64,000 nucleotides of DNA from Microbacterium sp. zg-Y818 (lineage in GTDB: Bacteria; Actinomycetota; Actinomycetes; Actinomycetales; Microbacteriaceae), in contig NZ_CP126741.1 of the NCBI RefSeq assembly GCF_030246905.1, forward strand, positions 3,170,985 to 3,234,984. The letters are read 5' to 3'. The notes beneath the pieces were generated by a model. It searched no databases. It was given only the letters and a program-made list of their open reading frames with translations, and was not told the DNA's origin. Positions 38,636 through 62,949 of this stretch are shown one piece after another. The translations under genes and the position numbers were made by a program. Each line of letters opens with the position of its first letter. The stretch's first letter is position 1.

Positions 38636-39074
38636 GCAGCCGTACCTCCGTCATTTTCGGGTGTCGTCGGGGTGGGACACATTCACGCTATGCACGGCCA
38701 CCGACACTCGCAACCAAGCCTGTGGATAACTATGTGGAAAGTCTGCGTGAAACGCCGCCAACCCTGTGTACAACCCCTGTGGAAAACGCCCGGGATACAG
38801 GAATCGAGCAAACGTGATTTCTCGATTGACCTGGGATTTATTTGTTCACAACCTGTGGATGGGATTGTGGTTGAAGTACGCGTTGAAGGTTGGGGACGGC
38901 GTACCACGTTATACACAGCCGCACACCCTCGGCCCGCATCGGATGCCGCCTGTGGAAAGGCTCCCACGGGGGCGCGTCGGGCCCCCAGCGAGCCCGAAAA
39001 CGACGGATGCCGTGAACCCGGTGAGGGTCCACGGCATCCGTGTCGTTCTGTCGCCCCGAGGGACGACGCGCCGC
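38636..39074. other. dnaB-rplI intergenic region with DnaA-box-like cluster
   Basis: No gene. It holds eight 9-mers close to TT(A/G)TCCACA (on either strand): tgtggataa 38721, tgtggaaag 38733, tgtgtacaa 38765, tgtggaaaa 38778, ttgttcaca 38842, tgtggatgg 38854, ttatacaca 38909 and tgtggaaag 38951. The first is the perfect complement of the consensus TTATCCACA. The stretch 38800-38880 is AT-rich for this genome and carries an aatcgag/ctcgatt inverted repeat (38802-38827). The promoter of dnaB must lie here. Confidence 0.7.
38995..39041 (-). terminator. Intrinsic terminator after rplI
   Basis: A 12-bp perfect stem (acggatgccgtg at 39003-39014, cacggcatccgt at 39030-39041) with a 15-base loop. 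On the minus strand the stem is followed by a CGTTTTCG run. It closes the rpsF-ssb-rpsR-rplI operon. Confidence 0.75.
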
Positions 39075-55883: not shown

Positions 55884-56993
55884 TCAGCGGGCGCCGAACT
55901 CGGTCTCGCCGATCTCCTCGAGAATGCGGTTGAGGTCCTGGATCGTCGCGAAATCGATGATCACCTGGCCTTTTCTCGCGCCGATGTTGATCTTCACCTT
56001 GGTGTTCAGCCGATCGCCCAGCCGCTCGGCGACCTCATCGAGGTGTGCACGTCGCGCGCCCGCCTTCGGGAGGGCACGGCGCGACGCGCCGGCATCCGTC
56101 GCCTTCGCCGCAGCCTCGGCGGCGCGCACCGAAAGGTCCTCGTTGACGATCTTGTCGGCGAGCCGCTGCATCGCCTCGGGGTCCTCGAGTGACAGGACGG
56201 CGCGGGCGTGCCCGGCGCTCAAGACGCCCGCGGCGACCCGATGCTGCACCGGGATCGGCAGCTTCAGCAGGCGGATGGTGTTGCTGATCTGCGGCCGGGA
56301 CCGGCCGATGCGCGTGGCGAGCTCTTCTTGCGTGATGCCGAAGTCCTCGAGCAGCTGCTGGTAGGCGGATGCCTCTTCGAGCGGGTTCAGCTCCGAGCGG
56401 TGCAGGTTCTCGAGCAGCGCGTCACGCAACAGGTGCTCGTCCTCGGTGTCGCGCACGATCGCCGGGATCGAGGTGAGGCCAGCTTCACGCGACGCGCGCG
56501 TGCGCCGCTCCCCCATGATGAGCTCGTACTTGCCGTCGGCGTTGGTGCGCACGACGACGGGCTGCAGCACGCCGAACTCCCGCACGCTGTGCACGAGCTC
56601 CGCGAGATCGTCGGAGTCGAAGTGCGTGCGCGGCTGGCGCGGGTTCGGGACGATGTCGTTGGGGTCGACCTGGATCAGGCGGGTGCCCGGGATGGCGACG
56701 AGCTCGGGCGCGTCCGGGTCGGACGCCGGCGCGTCGGGGGCGTCGGCCTCGGGCGCGTCTGTCGCGTCCGTGCGCGAGGTGTCTTCGGACGTCGCGGGCT
56801 GCGCGGCGACGGCGGCATCCGTCGTGGAGGTCTCTTCGGTTGCCGCTGTGGACGCGGCGACGGCTGCAGCCTCAGCCTCGGCGGCCTTCCGCGACGCGCC
56901 GGGGAAGAACACGTCGACGGGACGCGCCTCCGACGGCTCCGACGTCGGGATGAGCGCCCCAATGCCTCGACCGAGACCAGTTCTCTTCGCCAT
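55884..56993 (-). CDS. parB: Chromosome-partitioning protein ParB
   Basis: 369 residues. N-terminal KRTGLGRGIGALIP (ParA-stimulating tip), a long acidic Thr/Ala/Asp linker (35-105), the CTPase/ParB box LIMGERRTRASREAGLTSIP, the LENLHRSELNPLEEASAYQ segment, the parS-binding helix-turn-helix (FGITQEELATRIGRSRPQIS) and a C-terminal dimer domain. It loads on the parS sites clustered to the right of parA. Its ATG shares one base with the parA stop. Confidence 0.97.
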   Translation of the reverse strand: MAKRTGLGRGIGALIPTSEPSEARPVDVFFPGASRKAAEAEAAAVAASTAATEETSTTDAAVAAQPATSEDTSRTDATDAPEADAPDAPASDPDAPELVAIPGTRLIQVDPNDIVPNPRQPRTHFDSDDLAELVHSVREFGVLQPVVVRTNADGKYELIMGERRTRASREAGLTSIPAIVRDTEDEHLLRDALLENLHRSELNPLEEASAYQQLLEDFGITQEELATRIGRSRPQISNTIRLLKLPIPVQHRVAAGVLSAGHARAVLSLEDPEAMQRLADKIVNEDLSVRAAEAAAKATDAGASRRALPKAGARRAHLDEVAERLGDRLNTKVKINIGARKGQVIIDFATIQDLNRILEEIGETEFGAR

Positions 56994-57934
56994 CAGGGTT
57001 TTCCTTCTTCTTTGTGTGTCGTGCCGCGCTGGATGATCTCCACCGCTGCTTCCTTGTAAGCCACTGCCCCGGCTGAGTGTCCGTCGTACGCGATGACGGT
57101 CTGTCCGAAGCTCGGAGCCTCGGACACTCGCACCGAGCGTGGGATGACCGTGCGCAGAACCTGCTCGGCGAAGTGCGAGCGCACCTCTTCGGCGACCTGT
57201 TGGGCGAGGCGGGTGCGGCCGTCGTACATGGTCAGCAGGATCGTCGAGACGTGCAGCTGGGGGTTGAGGTGCTTCTGGATCATCCGCACACTCCCGAGCA
57301 GCTGGCTGAGCCCCTCCAGCGCGTAGTACTCGCATTGGATCGGGATCATCACCTCGTCGGCCGCCGTGAACGCATTGATCGTCAGCAGCCCGAGCGAGGG
57401 CGGGCAGTCGATGATGACGAAGTCCAGGCGCGGCTGCAGATCGCGCAGGTAGTCCTCGAGGGCCGTCTTGAGCCGGTGCTCGCGTGCCACCTGGGACACC
57501 AGTTCGATTTCAGCGCCGGCGAGGTGGATCGTGCTGGGCGCACAGAAGAGATTGGGTGATTCCGGGCTCTGCTGCACGATATCGGCGAGCGGGAAGTCGT
57601 CGATCAGAACGTCGTAAACGCTCGGGATGTCGGCCGTGTGGGGGATCCCCAGCGCCGTGGAGGCGTTTCCCTGCGGGTCCAGGTCGATGACGAGCACACG
57701 TGCGCCGAGAGCGGCGAGAGCGGCGGCGACGTTCACTGCCGTCGTGGTCTTGCCCACCCCGCCCTTTTGGTTGGAAACGGTGAAAACGCGGGTTTCTCCG
57801 GTCAATCGCACGTCAACGACGTCGAGCGCGCGGCGGCGTGCGGTGAGGTCCGCCAATTCCCGCGCCAGCGGTGCGTCGTCGAGGCTGAAGGATGCCGGTC
57901 CGGCTCCATCCTCGGGTTGTTTCACGTGAAACAT
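56993..57934 (-). CDS. parA: Chromosome-partitioning ATPase ParA (Soj)
   Basis: 313 residues. Deviant Walker A QKGGVGKTT at 56-64, VLVIDLDPQGNASTALG, and FVIIDCPPSLGLL (Walker B). ATP-dependent DNA binding drives ParB-parS segregation. The first residues MFHVKQ are encoded by a parS site, so the site overlaps the start codon. The N-terminal 45 residues before the ATPase are an extension; a later start is possible but no better RBS is seen. Confidence 0.96.
   Translation of the reverse strand: MFHVKQPEDGAGPASFSLDDAPLARELADLTARRRALDVVDVRLTGETRVFTVSNQKGGVGKTTTAVNVAAALAALGARVLVIDLDPQGNASTALGIPHTADIPSVYDVLIDDFPLADIVQQSPESPNLFCAPSTIHLAGAEIELVSQVAREHRLKTALEDYLRDLQPRLDFVIIDCPPSLGLLTINAFTAADEVMIPIQCEYYALEGLSQLLGSVRMIQKHLNPQLHVSTILLTMYDGRTRLAQQVAEEVRSHFAEQVLRTVIPRSVRVSEAPSFGQTVIAYDGHSAGAVAYKEAAVEIIQRGTTHKEEGKP
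57918..57933. promoter_or_regulatory. parS site 1 (overlaps parA start)
   Basis: tgtttcacgtgaaaca, perfect 16-mer, inside codons 1-6 of parA. ParB binding here could autoregulate parAB. Confidence 0.95.
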
Positions 57935-58040
57935 CCTTCCGTTTTCGCTCGACGAGACACCTGCTCAACCCTACGCGACCCCGCCCCCACTCCCGTCCTC
58001 CGCACCGCCGGGCGCGGGCACAATCCCACTCCCGGGGCGG

Positions 58041-58056
58041 CGTTTCACGTGGAACA
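58041..58056. promoter_or_regulatory. parS-like site 2 (one core mismatch)
   Basis: cgtttcacgtggaaca differs from the core by a G for A in the right arm. Probably weaker. Confidence 0.75.
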
Positions 58057-58289
58057 CGTCCACATTCCGGCCCCACCGCGGGCTTTGGGCGGGTGCCGAA
58101 GGGCGCCGGTCACGCACGAGGTGGCATCCCTATGTACTGACGAGCGGCCAGGCCTCCCCTGCCGGTGGTTGTTGAACGCCCGGTTGCAGCGTGGACGGTC
58201 GGCCTAGCCAAGCCATCTTGGGGTGCGAGGACGACATCTCACGACGCCTACCGGCCCGCCGCGCCCACACAACCGGTGGGTGCGCTAGC

Positions 58290-58320
58290 GCAACGCCGCA
58301 CAAACAAAGAGCGGCGTTGC
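58290..58320. repeat. Perfect 10-bp inverted repeat in the parS region
   Basis: gcaacgccgc (58290-58299) and gcggcgttgc (58311-58320) with an 11-base A-rich loop. Possible terminator of an unseen transcript or structural element; no T-run follows. Confidence 0.55.
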
Positions 58321-58779
58321 ACCCGCTTTCGGCGCCTTCGGCCTAGCGGCACTTCGACGTCCCGCCGCCGCACCCATTCGGGGTCGGCGACGCGCCTCCC
58401 CTTTGCAGGTGCGCGCGGCGCGGAAACCTGGGCTCATCTTCCTTGGCCGACCGCCGGACTCAGCGCCTGAACCCTCGCTGGGCCGGGGCCGAGCGCCTGG
58501 AAATTGCGGAAATTTGCGCCCCTATCGGTTCATTTTGCGTACGCGCAGCGTCCGCGGCGGACGAATCCGCGGACCTGCTGGCGTCTTGGACATGCTGCTC
58601 GCGCACCACAGGGGCGCTGGTGCAATCGAAAAGACCCGCAGAAGAACCCCGAGCGCACACTGTTGCGGGCTCTGTCGTCCGCGGTGACCGAGCCGGACAC
58701 CGCAATAGCCACACTCTGCGGCTGGGAGCGGATACGCGGAGCACCTCGCCACAAGCTGGGCCCCATGCTCCTTCCTGCT

Positions 58780-58795
58780 TGTTTCACGTGAAACG
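58780..58795. promoter_or_regulatory. parS site 3
   Basis: tgtttcacgtgaaacg; the 14-base core gtttcacgtgaaac is intact. Confidence 0.93.
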
Positions 58796-58876
58796 GAGCA
58801 ATGCCCCGGAGCGCCCTGGTGCGTCACATTCACCCCGTCCCCCGCACCCCTCGGGTATTCTGCGCCGTAGGCGCGA

Positions 58877-58892
58877 TGTTTCACGTGAAACG
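58877..58892. promoter_or_regulatory. parS site 4
   Basis: tgtttcacgtgaaacg, intact core, 97 bases after site 3. Confidence 0.93.
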
Positions 58893-59032
58893 GCAGTTCG
58901 ATAGCGCGCGACATCTGACCGGGGTCGCCGGAGTCACACCGCTCGTGTGGCGTCCCTGCGGCGTCCCGTACCGAAAGGCGACCCGCCTGTCCCCGCAACC
59001 CGTGGCGGCAGTATTCACGAGTTGGAGAGGCG

Positions 59033-59048
59033 TGTTTCACGTGAAACG
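59033..59048. promoter_or_regulatory. parS site 5
   Basis: tgtttcacgtgaaacg, 156 bases after site 4; flanks extend the symmetry (gcgt...acgc). Confidence 0.93.
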
Positions 59049-59204
59049 CGCCGGTTTGAGCGGTTCGAGATTGTCGCTCGGCGCTCGTTGCCTGCTTCGC
59101 TTGTGTAGCGACCTTCGCGCAGTGAAGCGGCTACCGTGCATTGCACCGCCGCTTCCCGTCACGCGCATCACACTCCCGTCCTCGTTAGAGCTGTGCGAGC
59201 GCGC

Positions 59205-59220
59205 CGTTTCACGTGAAACA
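59205..59220. promoter_or_regulatory. parS site 6
   Basis: cgtttcacgtgaaaca, intact core, 172 bases after site 5. Confidence 0.93.
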
Positions 59221-59376
59221 TCTGGTGCGGGGGGAGACGCCCCAGAACGCCCTGCTCAGCCTGCGTCGATCCGGGCCCTGGAACGGTGCCGCTTCACTGA
59301 TCCATGCGGCACGCCAGAACGGGCGGCATGGGTACACGCCGGCCCGCGAGCGACTCACCGACGCCACTTGGTCGCT

Positions 59377-59392
59377 TGTTTCACGTGAAACA
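59377..59392. promoter_or_regulatory. parS site 7
   Basis: tgtttcacgtgaaaca, perfect 16-mer, 172 bases after site 6. Confidence 0.95.
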
Positions 59393-59799
59393 TAGCGAAA
59401 GGAGCGAATCTCGCGCTTGGGGCAGGCCGTCGCGCCCCGCACGCCGGGGTGCGAGGTGCCAGAACAGGGGCGCGCGGAGCGTAGAAGGTGGCGAGCCCGC
59501 GCCGCCGGCTAGCCCATCCGCCCCGGTGCGCGAAAGGCGTGCCCACAGGCATACCCTCCCCCGCTTCCGCACCATACGTGACCCCCGTGGGTCCTCTGCG
59601 ACCCATTAACCGACCAGTTGCGAACCGGGCGACAGGGCGCTCGACGGCGACGCGCGGCTCCCGCACACGGCGTGCGGCAGGCCTGTCGCCGACACGGACC
59701 TTGAGCTTCACCCCTTGGTGGGTGATGAGCGCCGCGTCCCCCGCCGTCGCGAACGAAGAACCGCGTGCGCGCGGCGCACATGCGTATCTGCGCGCAGAA

Positions 59800-59815
59800 T
59801 GTTTCACGTGAAACG
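59800..59815. promoter_or_regulatory. parS site 8
   Basis: tgtttcacgtgaaacg, intact core. Confidence 0.93.
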
Positions 59816-60225
59816 CGTCCTGTCATGCCCTCTCTCGTAGGCAGCCGGGCCTCCCCTTGTACCGGGTTATCTGACCACATGTCCACGGCAGCACTGGCCC
59901 GGGTAAGTGCGGCGCAGGGTGTCGGGCGCCCTTGGCGCGCGCCAACCACGTCCGTCTGGCCGGATCAGGATGGATCAAAGGGGAGACCAGAACCATGAGG
60001 ATCCCCCGCTCGGCCGCCCGTCGGTTGCAACACCGGCGTGGCGAGACCACCTGTCGACGTTCAGTCCACCTTGTCGCGACCGCCACAAGCCAGCCGGCAT
60101 CCGACCGTCGCCGAGGCTTTGCGTGCGACCGATGGTCGACAGAGAGAGCGGCCACATCACGGAGGCGTCAATGCCCGTCGTCCGGCTCCCCGAAGTCAGA
60201 GCGTCCGGATTACTCCTACGCGGCG

Positions 60226-60280
60226 GCGAATATTCACTCGATTCACCTAATACTCACTCGGCGCTGCGAATACTCAATCG
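60226..60280. repeat. 20-bp-period repeat beside the last parS, inverted copy of the purB repeat
   Basis: Three imperfect units whose cores tattcactcg, tactcactcg and tactcaatcg start at 60231, 60251 and 60271, exactly 20 bases apart. They are the reverse complement of the unit at 6725-6764. Confidence 0.8.
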
Positions 60281-60293
60281 GCAGCAGATCCCT

Positions 60294-60309
60294 TGTTTCA
60301 CGTGAAACA
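60294..60309. promoter_or_regulatory. parS site 9
   Basis: tgtttcacgtgaaaca, perfect 16-mer, last of the array, 170 bases from the rsmG stop. Confidence 0.95.
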
Positions 60310-60478
60310 GGTGCCGTTTCGGGGGGCGTCCGGCTCGAATCGGTGCCTCTCGGCGTCATTTCGGGGAGACCCCGGAGTGCGGAGCGGGGCGCAGAATGGC
60401 TCTCACACAACCGAAACCGGTCGTTCTCCCCATCGAGAACGGGTCGTGAGGCGGGGAGCGGTCGGCCAGCAGGCCGCG

Positions 60479-61105
60479 TCAGCGGACGGTGGCTCGGATG
60501 ACCCGCGTCGGCTCCGCGATCAGACCCTCGCCCACCGGCTCGACCCGCACGTTCGAAAGACGGAACTTGCGGATGATCTTCTCGGCAGCCGCGATCTCGT
60601 TCGCCGCGTTCGCGCCCTTGAGCAGGACGAGCTCGCCACCGTCGCGCACCAGCGGAGCCGTGAGTGGAACCAGCGTGCGCAGCGCGCTCACCGCCCGCGC
60701 AGTCACGGCGTCGAGGACGGGACCGCGTGACCAGTCCTCCGCCCGCGCGCGCAGCACCTCGACGTTGTCGAGTCCCAGCTCACGCACCTGTTCCTCGAGC
60801 CACATCACCCGGCGCTCCATCGGCTCGATGAGCACCCACCGCACGTCGGGACGCGCGATCGCCAGCACGACGCCAGGCAGACCTGCGCCGGACCCGACGT
60901 CGCCCACCGTGCCCTGGAACAACGGGGCGGCCACCGCGCTGTTGAGGATGTGCCGTGTCCACAGTCTCGGCAGCTCCAGCGGTCCGATGAGACCACGCTC
61001 TTCGCCGTGCGCAGCGAGTGCCGACGTGAACGCGCGCGCAACGTCGATGCGGTCGCCGAAAATTTCCGACGCGACCTGGGGTTCTTCTTCGAGAGCGTTC
61101 ATCAC
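60479..61105 (-). CDS. rsmG: 16S rRNA (guanine-N7) methyltransferase RsmG
   Basis: 208 residues; GTG 61105 directly followed by an ATG, either of which may be the start. LPRLWTRHILNSAVAAPLF, GDVGSGAGLPGVVLAIARP (SAM loop) and VTARAVSALRTLVPL are RsmG/GidB signatures. It methylates G527 of 16S rRNA, and loss gives low-level streptomycin resistance. It is downstream of jag in the conserved ori operon. Confidence 0.96.
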   Translation of the reverse strand: MMNALEEEPQVASEIFGDRIDVARAFTSALAAHGEERGLIGPLELPRLWTRHILNSAVAAPLFQGTVGDVGSGAGLPGVVLAIARPDVRWVLIEPMERRVMWLEEQVRELGLDNVEVLRARAEDWSRGPVLDAVTARAVSALRTLVPLTAPLVRDGGELVLLKGANAANEIAAAEKIIRKFRLSNVRVEPVGEGLIAEPTRVIRATVR

Positions 61106-61117
61106 GGAAGCGGAACG

Positions 61118-61609
61118 TCAGGCCCGGCTGATGACCGTGTGCCGGTCGGCGCCCTCACCGTAGGACTCCGAGACGAAGCCCCGCGCCGAGGCCACATCGT
61201 GCACGAGCTTGCGCTCGTAGCTCGACATGGGAGGCAGGGATGCCTGCGATGCGCCCTCGTCCAGACGCTCGATCGCGAGATCGACCAGGCGCTCCAGTTC
61301 GCGCTGGCGCTGCTCACGCGATCCCCCGACATCGAGGATCAGACGCGAGAAGCGTCCGGTGCGGTTCTGAACGGCAAGCCGTGTCAGCTCCTGCAGCGCC
61401 TGCACCGTGTCCGGGTGGCTCAGCAGGGACAGCGAGCCCGAGTCCTCGGCTTCGACCGAAACGTACGCGCGCCCGGCGCGCACGTCCAGGGCGAGGTCAC
61501 CGTCGATGTCGGCGATATCGAGCAGCTCTTCGAGGTAGTCGGCGGCGATGTCGCCTTCCTGCTCGAGCTGCTCGACCGTGGCGTCCGCGGATTCAGGCGT
61601 GAGAGTCAT
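61118..61609 (-). CDS. jag: Jag/KhpB-type KH-R3H RNA-binding protein
   Basis: 163 residues. KH-like region (DYLEELLDIADIDGDLALDV) and R3H motif near the end (SYERKLVHDVASARGFVSES), missing the long N-terminal Jag domain of Firmicutes. Members bind RNA and link to envelope growth and sporulation. It lies between yidC and rsmG, 20 bases after yidC ends. Confidence 0.95.
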   Translation of the reverse strand: MTLTPESADATVEQLEQEGDIAADYLEELLDIADIDGDLALDVRAGRAYVSVEAEDSGSLSLLSHPDTVQALQELTRLAVQNRTGRFSRLILDVGGSREQRQRELERLVDLAIERLDEGASQASLPPMSSYERKLVHDVASARGFVSESYGEGADRHTVISRA

Positions 61610-61629: not shown

Positions 61630-62949
61630 TCAGGACTTCTTGGGCGGCTTCGGCGGCGTCGTACTCGGCCGGCTGCCGTCAGTGCCGTCGGATGCGGAGC
61701 CTCCCGGCTTGCCCGAAGCGTCGGGCGAGGCCTTCTTGGCGGGACCACTCTTGGGCGGCGTAGAACGCGGTCGGCCGGCGGCGCTGCTGTCGGATGCGGA
61801 GCCTCCCGTGGCGTCGGAGCCCGCCGGCTTTCCCGAGCCGTCGGCCGAGGCCTTCTTCGCGGGAGCACCCTTGGGCGCCTGCTTCTTCTTCGCGCGCTGC
61901 TTGCCGACCGGCTGCTGGCGCTTGGGCGCGGCCGCACGTGCGCGCTCTGCCTCTTCAGCCAGACGCCGCTGCTCCTCCTGGTACTTCTCCATCGGGATGA
62001 CGCGGCCCTTGGAATCCAGCGCCTTACCCTTGCGTGCCAGGCGCTCCTCGCGCTGCTTCGCGGCGTCGGAGCCGGGGGTCGGCAGGTTGCGGATCACGAC
62101 GAACTGCTGCGCCATCGTCCACAGGTTCGACGTGAACCAGTACATGACCACACCGAGGGGGAAGAAGACACCCGAGAAGATGAATGCCAGCGGCAGCACG
62201 TACAGCATGATCTTCTGCATCTGGTACGCCTGGCCGGTCTTGGCCTCGGGCGACAGGTTCTTCGAGATGATCTGCAGCTGGGTGATGAACTGCGACGCGA
62301 TCATCAGCACCACGAGGATGATCAGGATGATGACGGTCGCGGTCTGCCCCTGGTTGATCGCGTCGATCATGTTGACGTGCAGCGGAGCGACATCGAAGAG
62401 CTGCGCGTCGTAGAACTGCTTCGTGAGCTCGGTGTTGAGCAAGCCCACACCGCCCACGCCCCACTCAGCGTGCTTCTTCACATCGCTGAGCGTGTAGAAC
62501 ATGCCCAGCAGAATCGGCATCTGCACCAGGAGCGGCAGACAGCTCGACACCGGTGTGGTGCCGTGCTTCTTGTACAGCGCCATCGTCTCGCGGCTCATGG
62601 CCTCGCGAGAAAGCTGGTCCTTCTTGCCGCGGTACTTCTCCTGGACTTTACGCAGCTCAGGAGCAATTTCCATCATCTTGCGCTGGCTCTTGATCTGCCG
62701 CACGAACAGCGGGATCAGCGCGGAGCGCACCACGATGACGAGGCCGATGATGGACAGCACCCAGGTGGCACCTGCCGTAGCAGGCATCCCCACAGCCGTG
62801 AACAGCCAGTGCCAGAACACCAGGATGAGCTCGACGAGCCACTTGAACGGCCACATCAGCGTGCTGAAGAGGTCGAAACCCTCCCCGGGAGGCGGTGTCG
62901 TCGGGGTGGGAACCACCGGGATCGGGGTGGCAGCGAAGAGATCCAGCAC
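61630..62949 (-). CDS. yidC: Membrane protein insertase YidC
   Basis: 439 residues, GTG start. Five-TM YidC/Oxa1 core: PFKWLVELILVFWHWLF, IIGLVIVVRSALIPLFVRQI, then a hairpin, TTPVSSCLPLLVQMPILLGMFY and VVMYWFTSNLWTMAQQFVV. The C-terminal 110 residues are a basic Ala/Lys/Pro/Ser tail with internal repeats (KKASADGSGKPAGS and KKASPDASGKPGGS), likely ribosome contact. It inserts and folds membrane proteins. Confidence 0.97.
   Translation of the reverse strand: MLDLFAATPIPVVPTPTTPPPGEGFDLFSTLMWPFKWLVELILVFWHWLFTAVGMPATAGATWVLSIIGLVIVVRSALIPLFVRQIKSQRKMMEIAPELRKVQEKYRGKKDQLSREAMSRETMALYKKHGTTPVSSCLPLLVQMPILLGMFYTLSDVKKHAEWGVGGVGLLNTELTKQFYDAQLFDVAPLHVNMIDAINQGQTATVIILIILVVLMIASQFITQLQIISKNLSPEAKTGQAYQMQKIMLYVLPLAFIFSGVFFPLGVVMYWFTSNLWTMAQQFVVIRNLPTPGSDAAKQREERLARKGKALDSKGRVIPMEKYQEEQRRLAEEAERARAAAPKRQQPVGKQRAKKKQAPKGAPAKKASADGSGKPAGSDATGGSASDSSAAGRPRSTPPKSGPAKKASPDASGKPGGSASDGTDGSRPSTTPPKPPKKS

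Follow-up and report, generated by a model that had tools for sequence, protein, structure and literature searches.

The closest described parallels to the locus examined here come from chromosomal ParABS systems, in which ParB binds parS sites. According to passages of two papers, Myxococcus xanthus carries 22 parS within 3 kb, approximately 4 kb upstream of parA, and binding of ParB to this cluster has been shown in vitro (PMC3899335, PMC3778016). In Corynebacterium glutamicum, as described in part of another report, ten parS extend over 35 kb at 73 kb from oriC, nine of the ten being intergenic (PMC7083940). A section of a study on Bacillus subtilis describes clustering of parS within 5–40 kb as usual, calls the wide scatter of the B. 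subtilis sites seemingly counterproductive for avoiding Smc collisions and suggests that tight clustering would help to avoid them (PMC8357415). Here we analyze a parS array of Microbacterium sp. zg-Y818 that lies in the last 64 kb (the window) of a single-contig genome. Judged by its sequence, this array is very probably the complete and ordinary chromosomal ParABS centromere of Microbacterium, to which ParB would bind.

The parS pattern GTTTCACGTGAAAC matches nine places between 57,919 and 60,308 of the window, eight times as a perfect 14-bp core and once with a single mismatch. Sites 2 to 9 are contained in the non-coding gap between rsmG and parA, and site 1 abuts this gap:

57919..57932, no strand, parS 1, perfect core, overlaps the parA start codon
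58042..58055, no strand, parS 2, one mismatch (GTTTCACGTGGAAC), T4>C class
58781..58794, no strand, parS 3, perfect core
58878..58891, no strand, parS 4, perfect core
59034..59047, no strand, parS 5, perfect core
59206..59219, no strand, parS 6, perfect core
59378..59391, no strand, parS 7, perfect core
59801..59814, no strand, parS 8, perfect core
60295..60308, no strand, parS 9, perfect core
57935..60478, no strand, non-coding rsmG–parA gap (2.54 kb)

The dense nine-site array beside parA that the original prediction described, with eight full cores and one mismatch, is real: the window contains 10 parS matches at up to 3 mismatches, compared to 1.10 expected, and none of 100 shuffles reached this number. 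The tenth match, at 62125, has 3 mismatches and lies outside the gap. With up to 2 mismatches allowed, a scan of the whole genome (3,234,984 bases, one contig), as proposed with that prediction, returned these nine and no others; a reversed control pattern returned two. Since the genome contains no further site at this threshold, the window array is the complete parS set of the chromosome, and all nine sites fall within 2.4 kb. Site 1 is embedded in the start of parA (ATG TTTCACGTGAAAC, encoding Met-Phe-His-Val-Lys). The mismatch in site 2, which reads GTTCCACGTGAAAC on the other strand, is the commonest variant in the genus, and because this T4>C class makes up 55 of the 110 one-mismatch sites there, site 2 is probably functional and not decayed. 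B. subtilis also uses one-mismatch parS variants. Each of the nine cores is preceded by a pyrimidine and followed by a purine, which is the preference of the genus (among 1348 bases flanking perfect sites, T occurs 828 times, C 428, G 65 and A 27).

A compact cluster has precedent in M. xanthus, which, as far as the published passages go, resembles Microbacterium in that its numerous parS form one dense cluster, close to the origin and upstream of parA. The two differ in consensus (TGTTCCACGTGGAACG in M. xanthus, known here from literature alone, versus GTTTCACGTGAAAC in Microbacterium) and in that the Microbacterium array, unlike that of M. xanthus, abuts parA inside a rsmG–parA gap the length of which varies approximately 150-fold within the genus. 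C. glutamicum shares with Microbacterium an actinobacterial ParABS system with SMC and many sites (ten) near oriC, but Microbacterium has its nine sites in 2.4 kb, 4–6 kb from dnaA. The ParB of B. subtilis belongs to the same family, and its sites are scattered whereas those of Microbacterium form one cluster; by analogy, the Smc-collision idea would fit a single loading zone in Microbacterium. The original prediction had likened the array to a Streptomyces centromere, which is doubtful because Streptomyces parS are spread over hundreds of kb. It also overstated the contrast with known genomes, as passages in the literature describe 5–40 kb clustering as usual (PMC8357415) and 22 sites in 3 kb in M. 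xanthus (PMC3899335).

The new part of our finding is the evolutionary behavior of this centromere in the genus: an array of variable size at a fixed address, with sites that track its length, duplication in some species and conserved cores. Among the matches listed in the literature that we searched, there was no paper on Microbacterium parS arrays or on tandem duplication of parS. Pooling named and unnamed Microbacterium gave 128 readable loci, of which 114 remained after removal of near-duplicates. At six loci (L223, L235, L250, L044, L045 and L049) ParA carries an N-terminal extension of 185–308 residues, with parS within the coding frame, that overstates the gap; in L235 this extension contains low-complexity VPSENL repeats. 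Gap–site scaling and the spacing of 82 arrays were computed with corrected gaps. Uncorrected gaps underlie the results on coding periodicity, window spacing, Tandem Repeats Finder, tandem units, the 52 arrays and flank bases, nearest relatives, pair alignability, other genera, site location in 54 genomes, and genome size. Two records entitled Stenotrophomonas maltophilia (L186, included in the 114 loci) and Planococcus sp. (L200, outside this set) encode a Microbacterium-type ParB, 74% and 72% identical to that of the window, and are probably contaminated or mislabelled.

Across the 114 loci, gap length ranges from 76 to 11,385 bp with a median of 1,786, and each gap contains 2–18 sites at up to one mismatch. 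Site number follows gap length closely (Spearman 0.91), also in 113 phylogenetic contrasts (r = 0.63 with log gap, 0.73 with gap in kb). Of 887 sites in the stretches that were read, the gap holds 771, a position 5' of rsmG holds 89, and 27 lie elsewhere; the rsmG 5' site is kept in 85 of the 114 loci and is absent from this window. The longest gap (L177) has its first site only at 3.9 kb from rsmG, and part of this site-free stretch may, by its composition, represent decayed genes. The second-longest gap measures 7.8 kb (L049). Genome-wide counts agree with a fixed address. Perfect parS number 3–14 in 58 of 59 Microbacterium genomes, the exception, a draft in 110 contigs, has none and yielded no rsmG. 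Throughout the genus the cluster occupies the same location, and the rival outcome named with the original prediction, sites of relatives spread along the chromosome, does not apply there: the gap was readable in 54 of the 59 genomes, and of their 367 perfect sites 359 fall within it or immediately 5' of rsmG, with no perfect site elsewhere in 48 of the 54. Genome size was rejected as the driver of array size; its raw correlations are weak (across 58 genomes, rho = 0.35 with the number of perfect sites; across 54, 0.39 with gap length and 0.26 with the number of sites in the gap), and in phylogenetic contrasts with log gap it is not significant (r = 0.19, p = 0.18).

Array size might also be neutral. 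The gap would then passively accumulate duplicated DNA, with sites carried along, while one or two of them do the work. The drop in site density from 19.7 per kb in gaps below 200 bp to 1.8 per kb in gaps above 6.5 kb agrees with such an explanation, but the cores resist decay: sites in the gap or 5' of rsmG comprise 750 perfect cores, 110 with one mismatch (55 of them T4>C) and 23 with two. Even where no tandem repeat was detected (52 arrays), a count limited to at most one mismatch gave 398 sites, of which 358 match the core perfectly and 40 carry one mismatch.

Tandem duplication is directly visible in relatives. Of 94 gaps with a length of 200 bp or more, 35 contain arrays with a period of at least 40 according to Tandem Repeats Finder. 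With a period of at least 60 and overlaps removed, there are 43 arrays at 32 loci; the repeat unit contains a parS-like core with no more than 2 mismatches in 26 of them and lacks one in 17. Head-to-tail units that bear parS occur, for example, in L045 (293-bp unit, 5.5 copies), in L177 (one locus with L084; 287 bp, 3.6 copies) and in L191. Flanks that are at least 60% identical were found for 65 same-strand versus 3 inverted site pairs, of 2,796 pairs. A core-versus-flank comparison is biased, the sites having been picked by their core, and we used alignments of whole tandem units, in which only the consensus was chosen. Within the 26 parS-bearing arrays, core identity is 0.948 compared to 0.876 elsewhere in the unit (Wilcoxon p = 1.1e-4, an optimistic value, as several arrays stem from the same locus). 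The core is better conserved than the remainder of the unit in 21 of the 26, which again speaks against neutrality. Array growth by tandem duplication is demonstrated in relatives only.

The sequence between the cores can turn over quickly. Gap alignability was determined for 22 pairs; eight have a fourfold-site identity of at least 0.63, and of these seven align over 2–51% of the gap and one (L043/L203, fourfold identity 0.74) over 78%, which is closer to ordinary DNA. Mutated copies served as a control and were 99–100% alignable up to 25% change, 76–98% at 35% change with indels and 29–38% at 40% with indels. Since mutated copies remain alignable at the corresponding divergence, three pairs with fourfold identities of 0.77–0.81 and alignable gap fractions of 16, 30, and 51% are the clearest cases of fast turnover, while pairs at 0.63–0.68 are nearer to the limit of the method, as shown by the copies at 40% change. 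The pair L187/L186, with 98% of the gap alignable at a fourfold identity of 0.44, behaves like ordinary DNA over the whole gap, as expected from a neutral array size. In several sister pairs the cores persist despite quick turnover of the spacers. Spacers likely change faster than synonymous sites, a statement that is no stronger because fourfold sites in G+C-rich genes may be constrained. The window and its nearest relative have a fourfold-site identity of 0.50, and 5% of the gap is alignable. With fourfold identity already this low, such non-alignment is as expected for neutral DNA.

The original prediction also proposed a near-regular spacing that could favor bridging or clamp loading. The spacings in the window are 123, 739, 97, 156, 172, 172, 423 and 494, and this array is not regular (coefficient of variation 0.73 versus 0.81 for random placement, p = 0.40). 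It shows no helical phasing at 10, 10.5 or 11 bp, and none of 36 spacer pairs, both 172-bp spacers included, are alike with z > 4. The idea that spacing is under selection finds more to build on in the genus, where, among 82 arrays with at least five sites, 23 are spaced more evenly than random placement would give (p < 0.05) and one is clumped, and where spacings below 100 bp are rare (33 of 593 versus 121 expected). Restricting the comparison to the 52 arrays in which no tandem repeat was detected leaves the effect in place: 16 of them exceed random evenness, 1 is clumped, and 23 of 348 spacings are shorter than 100 bp, compared to 68 expected. The shortage of close pairs would be explained either by a lower spacing limit for ParB loading or by recombinational loss of close repeats, and 20 loci fit 2–3 sites into gaps of 76–187 bp. 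Given these observations, selection on spacing for bridging or clamp loading is improbable.

Could the gap encode an RNA or small proteins, with the parS sites being incidental? At 2.5 kb the gap is long for a bacterial intergenic region, and some relatives do have genes there. The gap of the window (57935–60478), however, gave no match in an Rfam search to E = 1 and none in a Pfam search of 10 frames, and coding periodicity was not seen (GC-phase contrast above 0.35 in 0% of gap windows versus 67% in rsmG and parA). The two nearest relatives can be aligned only at the parA start and leader and along short stretches around some parS, little conservation at a distance where neutral DNA is also unalignable:

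57914..57990, minus strand, parA start and leader, 91–92% over 77 bp with the two nearest relatives, site 1 included

A ribosome-binding-like GGAAGG precedes the parA ATG, and DNA folding of the parA leader was no better than that of shuffles (z = 0.52). A promoter and terminator scan, which has little discriminating power, found no promoter-like element (0.2 expected) and 4 terminator-like elements (2.0 expected). Overall, an RNA or small-protein product of the gap with incidental parS sites is very improbable. Gap genes at L231, L203, L229 and L246 encode a Mutator-type transposase, GIY-YIG proteins and a GNAT acetyltransferase (L229 by likeness to L203).

The genes around the array are those of a chromosomal origin region:

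55884..56993, minus strand, parB, ParB/Spo0J, the sole ParB_N protein found in the genome
56993..57934, minus strand, parA, KGGVGKT ATPase; ParA-family models match, all shown below cut-offs
60479..61105, minus strand, rsmG (gidB), origin side of the gap
61118..61609, minus strand, jag/eloR, model match below cut-off
61630..62949, minus strand, yidC

The minus-strand order is rpmH, rnpA, yidD (identified by eye among the frames), yidC, jag, rsmG, gap, parA, parB. On the same contig dnaA starts at base 101 and dnaN at 2080 (both identified by eye), so that on a circular contig approximately 3.8 to 6.2 kb would separate the array from dnaA. DnaA boxes were found between dnaA and dnaN and likely mark oriC. 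An oriC within the array was rejected, as there is no DnaA box at up to one mismatch in 57,900–60,500. Five DnaA-box-like 9-mers (one perfect TTATCCACA and four with one mismatch) were found at 38721–38917 of the window, approximately 25 kb from dnaA; this cluster could be a DnaA-titrating site.

This setting also bears on the plasmid-like centromere suggested by the original prediction. The array has the dense, iteron-like look that an integrated plasmid or phage centromere might have, yet it stands in chromosomal gene order by dnaA, keeps this location across the genus and is accompanied by the single ParB of the genome. Moreover, no plasmid ParA or ParB equivalog of type Ia scored over its cut-off among the models listed (best 25 of 28 for ParA, 5 of 5 for ParB). 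An origin from a plasmid or phage therefore has next to no probability. What we find instead matches a chromosomal ParABS system: the core GTTTCACGTGAAAC near oriC (assuming a circular contig), parA beside parB, and the KGGVGKT motif. Named neighbors among the best 80 of 339 loci mark the strain as a Microbacterium, its ParB being 85% identical to that of M. pullorum. ParB aligns to Spo0J (6sdk and others) over 184 residues that include GERR, ENLxR and SRPxI(S/A)N, which we take to be CTP-binding and DNA-reading motifs. By sequence, and with the meaning of these motifs so assumed, it would be a ParB with CTPase motifs and a parS-reading helix-turn-helix, and by analogy its likeness to Spo0J supports clamp loading. 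The genome encodes one ScpA and one SMC over cut-off.

Long arrays also occur outside Microbacterium, although short ones are commoner in the family. We surveyed one genome per genus for 72 other genera (73 were fetched, one of which has no parA in the stretch). Of the 72, 45 have an rsmG–parA gap shorter than 200 bp, 11 a gap of 200–1000 bp and 16 a gap of 1 kb or more, so that long arrays are not specific to Microbacterium. Gap length again correlates with the number of sites in the gap (Spearman 0.71), and in 27 of the 72 genomes a total of 58 sites follow parB at a distance of no more than 2 kb; 39 sites are elsewhere. Clustering of the sites at this location holds for the genus, while other layouts, including dispersed sites, occur elsewhere in the family. 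Several genera depart from the usual core. A locus from another genus of the family (L153) has a 6.8-kb rsmG–parA gap with 13 sites, 10 of which are T4>C one-mismatch variants, as if the preference of ParB had shifted. The perfect core is absent from three genomes of one genus (G071, G144 and G195), where the locus L105 of G071 has rsmG and parA and best matches with 4 mismatches at more than 5 kb from rsmG; this genus possibly uses a different centromere sequence. In L115, L119 and L120 the core GTTCCACGTGGAAC, as in the M. xanthus consensus, replaces most or all of the usual cores. Three small genomes of one genus (G062, G136 and G188) show the reverse layout in this same family, with nine perfect parS each, dispersed over tens of kb and several contigs (for G062, among the matches listed).

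From known ParB biology we infer how the Microbacterium array may work. ParB dimers would bind the nine palindromic cores and then close as CTP-dependent clamps, which would slide into the adjoining DNA and form one partition complex 4–6 kb from dnaA. ParA would pull this complex, and SMC–ScpAB would be loaded there. With all loading sites in one gap, there would be a single loading zone clear of recognizable protein-coding genes, save for the start of parA, and this may be the benefit of compactness. In evolution, arrays would lengthen and shorten by tandem duplication of parS-bearing units (in some species) and by spacer turnover, while selection holds the cores. The centromere looks like an evolvable array in which redundant sites are maintained. 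More tentatively, and with somewhat less than even confidence, the array may be likened to a eukaryotic satellite centromere, as a fast-evolving, gene-poor element of variable size that expands in tandem (by units of mostly 100–300 bp), with spacers that change faster than synonymous sites, selected cores, and a size that is itself a selected quantitative trait.

Several observations weigh against the centromere interpretation. Part of the C. glutamicum report states that a single parS allows near-normal growth and segregation (PMC7083940), which leaves the benefit of nine sites, and the upkeep of many perfect ones, unexplained. The 17 of 43 tandem arrays that lack parS fit a neutral array size, and so does the C. 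glutamicum result. The window itself contains no satellite-like tandem array and no trace of duplication among its spacers. Core conservation is no better than that of the remaining unit in 5 of the 26 arrays, the mean rank of the core among 14-base windows is 0.30, and the p value given above is optimistic on account of arrays from shared loci. Finally, among 88 gaps of 600 bp or longer, 11 contain frames of gene-like composition (12 frames in all), an upper bound that includes a few low-complexity frames and one ParA extension; five of the 12 were scanned, and four match Pfam families (Mutator-type transposase, AAA kinase-like, GIY-YIG and GNAT acetyltransferase). On balance, the original interpretation is partly supported, and with the cores maintained as they are, we regard a neutral array size as rather unlikely, though less so than the other alternatives.

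Why should a bacterium maintain many parS if a single one can be enough? To this standing question the genus brings natural arrays at one locus, from 2 sites in less than 100 bp up to 18 sites in 7.4 kb, all of which share their core and their neighboring genes. Relatives of the strain studied here show that parS arrays can grow by tandem duplication. With Microbacterium it can be tested directly how ParB clamp loading, ParA pulling and SMC loading depend on the number of sites, on their density and on the gene-free length.

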